From assembly GCF_000340475.1 (NCBI RefSeq), contig NZ_CM001792.1:1882659-1946658 (forward strand): DNA of 64,000 bases, read 5' to 3'. Under the pieces are notes generated by a model. It made no database searches. It was not told the origin of the DNA and was given only the letters and a program-made list of their open reading frames with translations. The position numbers were made by a program, and so were the translations under genes. This DNA is from Oceanobacillus kimchii X50 (GTDB lineage: Bacteria > Bacillota > Bacilli > Bacillales > Amphibacillaceae). Positions 47,524 through 61,605 of this stretch are shown here, piece after piece (position 1 is the stretch's first letter; every line of letters begins with the position of its first letter).

Positions 47524-48081
47524 ATGAAACATCATATTCGAGCTTTTTCACTCGGTTTGTTTACAAGTGCCTTAATTATTCTGATTGTATTCTATCTAGT
47601 ACAAGATTCGCAAACACCTATTGAAGATGTTAAAGCAGAAGAACTCATTCCTGTATTAGAAGATCAAGGTTACGCGGTTCTTTCCCAAGAAGAATACATA
47701 TCTTATAGTGTAAATGGAAACGATTCAGAAAAAAATACTGATACCAACAGTGAATCAACAGATGAAGACGCTGAACAGAATAAAGAAGAAACCGAAAATA
47801 ATAATAAAGAGGAAGAAGAAACAACTGAAGAAGATTCATCCAATGAAGAAGAATCTGAAGAAGATTCTCCAAAAGAATATAAGCTTACTATTGAAACTGG
47901 AATGGCTTCTTCTCAAATTAGCGATATACTAGAAAATGAAGATATTATTGAAAGTGCTTCTGACTTTAATGACTACTTAGAAGATAATGATTATGCAATT
48001 AACGTGAAGCCAGGCACATTTGAATTAACAAGCGATATGTCTCATTTTGAAATAGCGGAAGTAATTACAAGCTATAATTAA
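47524..48081 (+). CDS. MltG-like (YceG N-terminal region) membrane protein without catalytic domain
   Basis: 185 aa with one N-terminal membrane helix (about 8-26), a highly acidic low-complexity stretch rich in Glu/Asn/Ser/Thr (about 65-118), and a C-terminal domain (about 120-185) with GMASSQISDILENEDII and VKPGTFELTSDMSHFEIAEVI. That last domain resembles the LysM-like part of MltG lytic transglycosylases, but the catalytic Glu-containing domain is absent. Possibly a peptidoglycan-associated accessory. May correspond to B. subtilis yqzC. Confidence 0.7.
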   Translation: MKHHIRAFSLGLFTSALIILIVFYLVQDSQTPIEDVKAEELIPVLEDQGYAVLSQEEYISYSVNGNDSEKNTDTNSESTDEDAEQNKEETENNNKEEEETTEEDSSNEEESEEDSPKEYKLTIETGMASSQISDILENEDIIESASDFNDYLEDNDYAINVKPGTFELTSDMSHFEIAEVITSYN

Positions 48082-52361: not shown

Positions 52362-52400
52362 AAAAAAAAACACGTGAAATTCATTTCACGTGTTTTAATT
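52362..52400 (-). terminator. Terminator after sodA
   Basis: AAAACACGTGAAAT / ATTTCACGTGTTTT perfect stem with a 2-nt spacer and T/A tails, 12 bp past the sodA stop. Confidence 0.93.
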
Positions 52401-52412
52401 TATAGTTGTATA

Positions 52413-52940
52413 TTACTTAGCTTCTTCGTAGTTTTTCGCTACTTGATCCCAATTAACTACATTCCAGAATGCTGAAATGTATTCTGGGCGTTTATTTTGA
52501 TACTTAAGGTAATAAGCATGTTCCCAAACATCAAGTCCTAAAATTGGAGTTTTACCATCCATTAATGGTGAATCTTGATTTGGTGTGCTTGTAATTTCTA
52601 GTTCTCCGTTGTTAACAATTAGCCATGCCCAGCCAGAACCGAAACGTCCTGCTGCAGCTGTTGCAAATTCTTCTTTGAATTTGTCTAATGAGCCAAATTT
52701 AGCATTAATTTTATCAGCTAATTCACCTGTTGGCTCACCGCCACCATTTGGTGATAGTAACTTCCAAAATAGACTGTGGTTAGCATGTCCGCCACCGTTG
52801 TTGCGTACTGCAGTTTTTGCACTTTCAGGGACTGCATCGAGATTGCTTATTAATTCTTCTACAGACTTACTTTGAAGATCTGCCTGTCCTTCCAATGCAT
52901 CATATGCATATGGTAATTCAGGTAATTCAAATTTTGCCAT
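52413..52940 (-). CDS. sodA: Mn/Fe superoxide dismutase with internal N-terminal deletion
   Basis: Superoxide dismutase family; 175 aa instead of about 202. Start [17 protein letters not shown] is normal, then the sequence jumps to [14 protein letters not shown]. The missing 27 residues normally hold the first helical hairpin, with the metal ligand His (about residue 27, in an IHHTKHH-type motif) and the gateway Tyr. The other three ligands are present: His55 (HANHSLFW), Asp137 and His141 ([10 protein letters not shown]). The reading frame is intact. Catalysis is doubtful. ATG 52940, GAGGAGG upstream. Confidence 0.9.
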
Positions 52941-53076
52941 GTTTATCTTCCTCCTCAAAATAAATGATGTAAAGGTTTATGTCCCTTTATAGTAAAAAGA
53001 TTATCAAAGCTTTTAAGCAGTTGCAAACGATATGCTTTATATTTCCAATGTTTTGTATTCGATTTCATCTTCAAAT

Positions 53077-53180: not shown

Positions 53181-53324
53181 ATATTAAATTAATTTTAACT
53201 AATTTAAACTAATTCTGATATTAATTTATATACCGTTCTTATATCAAATTTTCATCAGTAAGTCACACTTCCACACTACAATTGTTTTTACTAAGTGATA
53301 ACACCTGCATCTTCAAGTTTATAG

Positions 53325-53390
53325 AGAGAAGTCTACATCACTGGAAGTTACACTTGTAACTCTACCAACTAAGCTACACGCTATGATCGA
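53325..53390 (-). pseudogene. Probable tRNA fossil
   Basis: Minus strand GTGTAGCTTAGTTGGTAGAGT is a recognisable tRNA D-arm, followed by a disordered anticodon-like region (ACAAGTGTAACTTCCAG) and no T-arm or acceptor. It lies in the 222-bp gap between tRNA-Ser and tRNA-Phe. Possibly a decayed Thr or Val tRNA; identity uncertain. Confidence 0.5.
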
Positions 53391-60279: not shown

Positions 60280-61584
60280 CTACTTTTTCTTTCTTTTAGT
60301 TAATTGTCGTTTAATCTCTTGTTGTTGGCGTTTTTGCTTCTTCTTATAACCAGGTTTTACTTTTTTCTGTTTAGATACTCGTTTCCAAGCCTCTTTATCG
60401 ATGGAAGTATCTACTTGTTGACGACGTTGTCGTTCATTCCACGAAGGATCTGTTTTCCATTCTCCATTTTTTACTTCTACAAATTCAAATATTAAGCCTT
60501 TTTGCTCTAATCGTTGAATTAATAACAAATCATTGTCATCATATATACTTATGGCTGTTCCTTCTAAACCAGCTCTAGCAGTTCTACCAACTCGATGAAT
60601 ATAAAAAGCTTCTTCTTTTGGAATTTGAGCGTTTATAACATGGCTAACACCTTTAATATCAATTCCTCTCGCAGCTAAATCAGTAGCCACAACGTATTGA
60701 TATCTAAGATTTTGAATTTCCTTTAAAACTCGTTTTCTTTCTCTAGGGGTTAAACCTCCATGAATAACTCCTACTTCTAATCCATATTCTAATAATTCAT
60801 CTGCAAGTTCATTTGCTTGTTTTTTACCATTTGTAAATATAAGTGTAAGGTACGGATTTATGGACTGAGAAATTTCCCAAATAATTTCAGCTTCATTTCG
60901 ATGTTTTTTTCGAATTAATCTATGCTCCATTTTTTCTGGTGAAAAGTGTTCATTAATTTTTATAATTAATGGATTATTTATATACTTTTTGAAAAAATGC
61001 TGTAGCCGTTGTGGAATAGTTGCAGAAAAAACAAGCAACTGAATATCTTGTTTCGATCGAACTAATAATTGATCGACTTCTTCAATAAATCCAAGATCTA
61101 ACATTAAGTCTGCCTCATCAACAACAAAAGATTTTGCTGAATATATAGACACAGCTCCACTTTTAACAAGATCTAAAATTCTACCTGGTGTTCCTACAAT
61201 AATATGAGGGGGTGTCTTTAATTTATCTGTCATTTTTTGTTTATCTGTACCACCAACTAGTAACTTTGCATTCCATTCATTCGTCTTATCAGCTAGGGTA
61301 ATTATATTTCTTACTTCATCATATAATTGCGTTGCTAGCTCTCTAGTAGGTGCGGTTATCACAAACTGAACTTCATTTCTATCACTTTCTAATTTGTGAA
61401 AAAGAGGTAATAAAAATGCATGCGTTTTACCAGATCCTGTGCGAGATTGTCCTACTACACTATCACCTTTTATTATAGCAGGAATAACTTTTTCCTGAAT
61501 TTCTGTAGGTTTTTTAAATTTTAATCGCTCAATAACATCATTTACAATGGGGTTTAATTGTAAATCTTCAAATTTCATACCCAC
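60280..61584 (-). CDS. cshB: DEAD-box RNA helicase CshB
   Basis: Cold-shock-associated RNA helicase. Q motif KFKKPTEIQEKVIP, motif I GQSRTGSGKT, motif II VVDEADLM, SAT in VFSATIP, motif VI HRVGRTARAG; a Lys/Arg-rich C-terminal tail (about 390-434). I chose GTG 61584 with AGGAGG 7 nt upstream; an ATG nine codons before would contain that site. 434 aa. In B. subtilis ispH and yqfQ separate it from yqfO; here they are adjacent. Confidence 0.94.
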   Translation of the reverse strand: MGMKFEDLQLNPIVNDVIERLKFKKPTEIQEKVIPAIIKGDSVVGQSRTGSGKTHAFLLPLFHKLESDRNEVQFVITAPTRELATQLYDEVRNIITLADKTNEWNAKLLVGGTDKQKMTDKLKTPPHIIVGTPGRILDLVKSGAVSIYSAKSFVVDEADLMLDLGFIEEVDQLLVRSKQDIQLLVFSATIPQRLQHFFKKYINNPLIIKINEHFSPEKMEHRLIRKKHRNEAEIIWEISQSINPYLTLIFTNGKKQANELADELLEYGLEVGVIHGGLTPRERKRVLKEIQNLRYQYVVATDLAARGIDIKGVSHVINAQIPKEEAFYIHRVGRTARAGLEGTAISIYDDNDLLLIQRLEQKGLIFEFVEVKNGEWKTDPSWNERQRRQQVDTSIDKEAWKRVSKQKKVKPGYKKKQKRQQQEIKRQLTKRKKK

Positions 61585-61605
61585 GTAATGACCTCCTATC
61601 TTCAT

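Follow-up and report, generated by a model that had tools for sequence, protein, structure and literature searches.

The shortened sodA gene

The window analyzed here is a 64,000-nucleotide stretch of the Oceanobacillus kimchii X50 genome (contig NZ_CM001792.1, positions 1,882,659 to 1,946,658), and its gene of interest is sodA, which specifies a superoxide dismutase (SOD) of the Fe/Mn family. In the following, G000 denotes the genome under study and G010 the closest relative by SodA among the genomes compared. The features of the locus, in window coordinates, are as follows.

52950-52955, minus strand: Shine-Dalgarno sequence AGGAGG of sodA, read from the sequence
52940-52413, minus strand: sodA coding sequence, ATG start, 175 codons plus stop, with 28 codons of the relatives absent
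52890-52903, minus strand: single remaining copy of the 14-base-pair (bp) repeat ATGATGCATTGGAA, present as two copies in G010; the deletion junction lies inside it, its exact point being indeterminable
52776-52778, minus strand: codon of His55, the second metal ligand, kept (His83 of the intact form), from sequence and alignment
52530-52532, minus strand: codon of Asp137, metal ligand, kept (Asp165 of the intact form), from sequence and alignment
52518-52520, minus strand: codon of His141, metal ligand, kept (His169 of the intact form), from sequence and alignment
52367-52396, minus strand: terminator-like hairpin of sodA, from a consensus scan only

The SodA protein has 175 residues here compared with 203 in G010, a gap of 28 residues or 84 bp, and the two proteins are 96% identical over query residues 13-175. 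The sodA frame is 201-204 residues long in 28 of the 29 relatives from which one was extracted. The remaining frame (locus L010, G008:C18), an apparent 641-codon double SodA, crosses a stretch of N and is no fusion. Upstream of the ATG, 251 bases are 92% identical to G010. An earlier, sequence-only reading had described an in-frame deletion of 27 residues (81 bp) that removes the first metal-binding His and the gateway Tyr, in a gene otherwise intact in its ribosome site and terminator. The deletion stands, with the frame reading as described, and the alignment places both residues in the piece absent relative to G010; its size has to be corrected to 28 residues. The AGGAGG, the hairpin and the gap-free remainder agree with the rest of that description, as does the retention of His55, Asp137 and His141, which are invariant in a 24-sequence alignment.

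The absent piece corresponds to helix 1 of the N-terminal hairpin and includes the first metal-ligand His as well as the gateway His and Tyr. Indeed, His28, His32 and Tyr36 of intact SodA all fall within it, and all are invariant in the alignment. Passages of PMC9208312 describe His26 of human MnSOD as a metal ligand and His30 and Tyr34 as gateway residues, and give three His and one Asp as the ligand set of Fe/Mn SODs. Judging from the conserved HHxxHHxxY motif, His28, His32 and Tyr36 would correspond to human His26, His30 and Tyr34, respectively. Thus, three of the four protein ligands are kept and the first His is gone with the absent piece. Profile searches show the same division: Pfam Sod_Fe_C (PF02777) is complete (153.3 bits, profile positions 1-102), while Sod_Fe_N (PF00081) is matched only over positions 48-82 of 82 (44.8 bits), compared with 1-82 (117.2 bits) in intact G010 SodA. 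Against a cut-off of 363 bits, the NCBIfam equivalog model scores the short protein at 213.3 and intact G010 SodA at 277.5, so that both fall short; the NCBIfam curated cut-offs are missed alike by intact SodA, by the SodF-type SOD and by both SodC-like proteins described below, so these models do not discriminate here.

AlphaFold2 models built with the same 23 relatives as input show one long hairpin helix in the short form (mean predicted local distance difference test score, pLDDT, 76.8; predicted template modeling score, pTM, 0.69), in which residues 1-13 score under 50, and two long hairpin helices in intact G010 SodA (pLDDT 86.2, pTM 0.85). The short protein would thus keep the C-terminal alpha/beta domain and three of the four metal ligands. 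Because it lacks helix 1 and, with it, the first of the His ligands and both gateway residues, it is predicted to be inactive, and superoxide dismutation should fail. The shortened protein is nevertheless probably still made, since its ribosome site and terminator are in place, and would then be degraded or remain inert.

A direct repeat in the closest relative marks both breakpoints

Recombination between short repeats had been suggested from the protein letters around the junction, and comparison with G010 provides the repeat at the DNA level. G010 sodA contains ATGATGCATTGGAA twice, as a 14-bp perfect direct repeat at both breakpoints with a spacing of exactly 84 bp, whereas the window sodA contains one copy. 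Among the 29 relatives, the repeat at the breakpoints is longest in G010; it measures 2-9 bp in the other 28. No repeats were reported inside the window's own sodA, as expected if one copy is already gone. A 91-bp G010 stretch spanning the absent piece has no match in the genome under study at E <= 0.001, and one match each in G010 and G014. A second intact sodA copy or a relocated absent piece was also sought in the genome under study, and neither was found.

The long repeat in the nearest relative, together with the deletion here, fits slippage between the copies, and we infer this mechanism. Either slipped mispairing or a RecA-independent recombination event between the two 14-bp copies, which lie 84 bp from each other, would remove one of them together with the DNA in between and, the spacing being a multiple of three, keep the reading frame. 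As an event it is ordinary: an important enzyme has been hit, in a single genome, by a short-repeat deletion.

The short form is seen in one of the genomes compared

Three whole-genome searches with the SodA query covered 58 genomes, 159 genomes of the family and 397 genomes of the order. In the 58-genome search, G000 alone aligns over residues 1-175 in one piece; SodA rows of the other genomes start at residue 13-20, and many genomes show a separate row for query residues 1-27, with extra codons in between. Fe/Mn SOD matches were obtained in 158 of the 159 family genomes and 396 of the 397 order genomes and, among the matches listed in both searches, all but that of G000 start at query residue 13-20. 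Furthermore, all 80 additional loci checked singly with the intact G010 protein carry the 28-residue piece, His28, His32, Tyr36 and the four ligands. The SodF-type rows of G016 and G007 span query residues 3-169 and 3-174, but they do so over 188 and 193 codons and hold no deletion. The 120 proteins listed of 8000 scored are 194-228 residues long, in a database clustered at 90% in which same-species members could be hidden. A conserved short-form SOD family, the finding that would have recast the deletion as a variant shared by relatives, was thus not found among the 58 genomes, the family and order matches listed, or the 80 loci. A literature search at the abstract level returned no report of this deletion or of an SOD-less Oceanobacillus.

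Selection, age and sequence quality

Over its remaining codons, sodA differs from G010 with a nonsynonymous rate (dN) of 0.012 and a synonymous rate (dS) of 0.293, giving a ratio (omega) of 0.042, the 15th lowest of 63 window open reading frame (ORF) pairs with G010. The two proteins differ at five residues; by outgroups, two of these are likelier G010 changes and two are ambiguous, and one replacement, D at alignment column 156, lies clearly on the window branch. Outgroup parsimony places at most 3 replacements on the window branch compared with ~61 expected if it had been neutral throughout, so that neutral drift covers at most ~13% of the branch on the assumption that the branch is half of dS; these changes are too few to date the loss. 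The near absence of decay in the remainder indicates that the deletion is recent, or is an artefact of stock or assembly, or that the short protein is still constrained.

A constrained short SodA could be retained for a non-enzymatic role, such as metal buffering, regulation or partnering another SOD subunit. Its omega value, its ribosome site and terminator, and its three ligands and C-terminal domain are what such a role would predict. However, intact SodA pairs have omega values of 0.030-0.058 where dS is measurable, and the low value here is explained by selection that acted before the deletion. Among the relatives seen none keeps this form, and nothing in the other genes suggests such a role, which we regard as very improbable.

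An artefact would mean that the deletion, and perhaps also the stop codon in the second SOD gene described below, is confined to the assembly or the sequenced culture and absent from the wild lineage. The occurrence of the short form in one genome only and the undecayed remainder are both compatible with this, and short-repeat deletions can generally arise in culture or from mis-joined reads. Against it, the assembly is a single contig with completeness 100 and contamination 0.25. Among the 63 ORF pairs (at least 100 aligned residues each, a few of them antisense frames, with gaps counted within aligned parts only), 58 contain no gap, four contain 1-2 gap positions and sodA contains 28; the pair at 60280-61605 also has a C-terminal end of 28 residues unaligned on either side. 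With one large gap in 63 pairs, locally poor sequence is ruled out for the aligned parts, and this clean area counts against a general error, though a culture variant would be compatible with it. In addition, a 14-bp repeat at 84 bp is shorter than normal reads, which makes assembly collapse unlikely, and an artefact would require the other SOD gene to have suffered an error or mutation of its own, independently of the first. We consider an artefact unlikely, and the assembly appears to reflect the living strain. Of the outcomes left open by the sequence-only reading (an inactive SOD, a new role or an artefact), the low divergence and the lack of any sign of a conserved new form make a recent loss of function the most likely.

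The second Fe/Mn SOD gene is interrupted

A search of the genome with PF02777 matched two places only, sodA and C1:1009049-1009357, where C1 is the contig of the genome under study. The second place lies outside the window:

G000:C1:1009010-1009885 (L149:7011-7886), minus strand: sodF-type gene, interrupted by an in-frame TAA

The search for a second SOD advised with the original prediction thus yielded one more Fe/Mn SOD gene, which is itself broken. Its TAA, at C1:1009559-1009561, is followed by one codon and then an in-frame ATG, splitting the frame into 108 and 181 codons (...DALEPYIAK-stop-I-MYLHHDKHH...). All three closest homologues (G021, G003 and G013; 86-90% identity) have an amino acid at the stop position. 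At 53-90% identity, the SodF-type rows of 28 relatives are open over 283-403 codons; 23 of the 28 loci were extracted as one open frame and five were missed by the motif filter. The TAA stands where the helix homologous to that lost in SodA begins. This agreement should not by itself be significant, because sodF would be broken by a stop at almost any position. The gene is flanked by two genes that are adjacent in G010, which lacks sodF there, and its context differs in G013 and G021; gain by transfer and loss in G010 are both possible histories.

The interrupted sodF might still supply some SOD function if translation restarted at the ATG, which follows the stop by one codon in the same frame. 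The 181-codon piece keeps the homologues of all four ligands, the HHDKHHQSY motif and the C-terminal domain, and matches Sod_Fe_N from profile position 23. The omega of sodF, 0.044-0.061 against the three closest homologues, is near the 0.039-0.055 found among those three. However, no Shine-Dalgarno sequence is visible before this ATG when the sequence is read, the piece lacks the N-terminal region of the SOD domain, and the stop may be no more than a recent event. Within the SOD domain, moreover, there are 15 positions at which sodF departs from a residue that the other three have in common; the corresponding counts for those three are 0, 3 and 5, though sodF also forms the deepest branch of the four. 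A working restart product seems improbable.

Since the sole other Fe/Mn SOD gene found has an in-frame stop, no intact cytosolic SOD would remain in the cell, which may thus be without a working internal superoxide dismutase. A genome of the same genus, G026 (completeness 100), has no SodA match and a SodF-type SOD only; other members of the genus may tolerate the loss of SodA as long as they have SodF.

Other oxidative-stress defences

Life in the genus Oceanobacillus is aerobic. Two Cu/Zn SOD-like genes are open and exceed the Pfam cut-off, encoding proteins of 213 and 195 residues. Both have a lipobox-like N-terminus and all of the metal ligands, the ligand set and the lipobox being what we take to be typical of the family. 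From these sequence signals, the SodC-like proteins should be lipoproteins outside the membrane that act outside the cytosol. The genome under study has six catalase matches (PF00199), compared with five in G010, three in G014 and five in G026. Compensation by extra Mn uptake was considered and rejected, as two Nramp-type matches exceed the cut-off here and two in G010. The search for Ni-SOD gave no match in the genome under study; as the controls gave no signal either, the result is no evidence of absence.

Other features of the window

A minus-strand sequence between tRNA-Phe and tRNA-Ser, at window positions 53320-53385, looks like a tRNA that has decayed; ARAGORN makes no call there. The corresponding interval of G010 is different, and the same six tRNAs are called in both genomes. 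At 47524-48081, a 185-codon ORF contains an acidic low-complexity stretch; its G010 counterpart, of 113 codons, aligns with it over no more than the first 97 residues.

Interpretation and comparison with known systems

Collectively, the data make it likely that sodA is a recent loss-of-function allele of an ordinary Bacillaceae Mn-type superoxide dismutase, produced by repeat slippage. More tentatively, and with less than even confidence, we suggest that two independent lesions in one and the same metal-binding helix have, in nature, deprived a free-living Oceanobacillus-like bacterium of both its cytosolic Fe/Mn SODs. The organism, which has catalases and Cu/Zn SOD lipoproteins, would then live with no cytosolic SOD, or with the split SodF only. 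The independent lesion in the sole other Fe/Mn SOD gene found is what raises the interest of the locus above that of an ordinary deletion. If both lesions are real, nature has produced a double SOD mutant in a family in which 158 of 159 genomes match Fe/Mn SOD, and the strain offers a ready test of how such a bacterium copes when cytosolic SOD is missing. Should they be artefacts, the record of the genome needs correcting, because the short protein may carry a superoxide dismutase annotation.

Comparison with Bacillaceae SodA, the Mn superoxide dismutase for which the best PDB sequence matches are 6pro, 1jr9 and 2rcv, reveals the same gene with the same remaining sequence, C-terminal domain and three ligands. 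In contrast to these proteins, the window SodA lacks the 28 residues that hold helix 1 with its metal-binding His and the two gateway residues. The second SOD belongs by sequence to the SodF-type SODs of Bacillaceae, which have an N-terminal extension, but differs from them in having an in-frame TAA where the homologous helix begins. A passage of PMC13008324 counts a SodFM3 group in Bacillaceae, and the SodF-type group is perhaps the same as this SodFM3. With regard to the lesion in sodA, deletions between the copies of short direct repeats are known to yield pseudogenes and loss alleles. The window sodA resembles such pseudogenes in that the deletion ends in a perfect direct repeat of which one copy is retained; it is unlike them in that the deletion is in frame, so that the reading frame and most of the domain survive.
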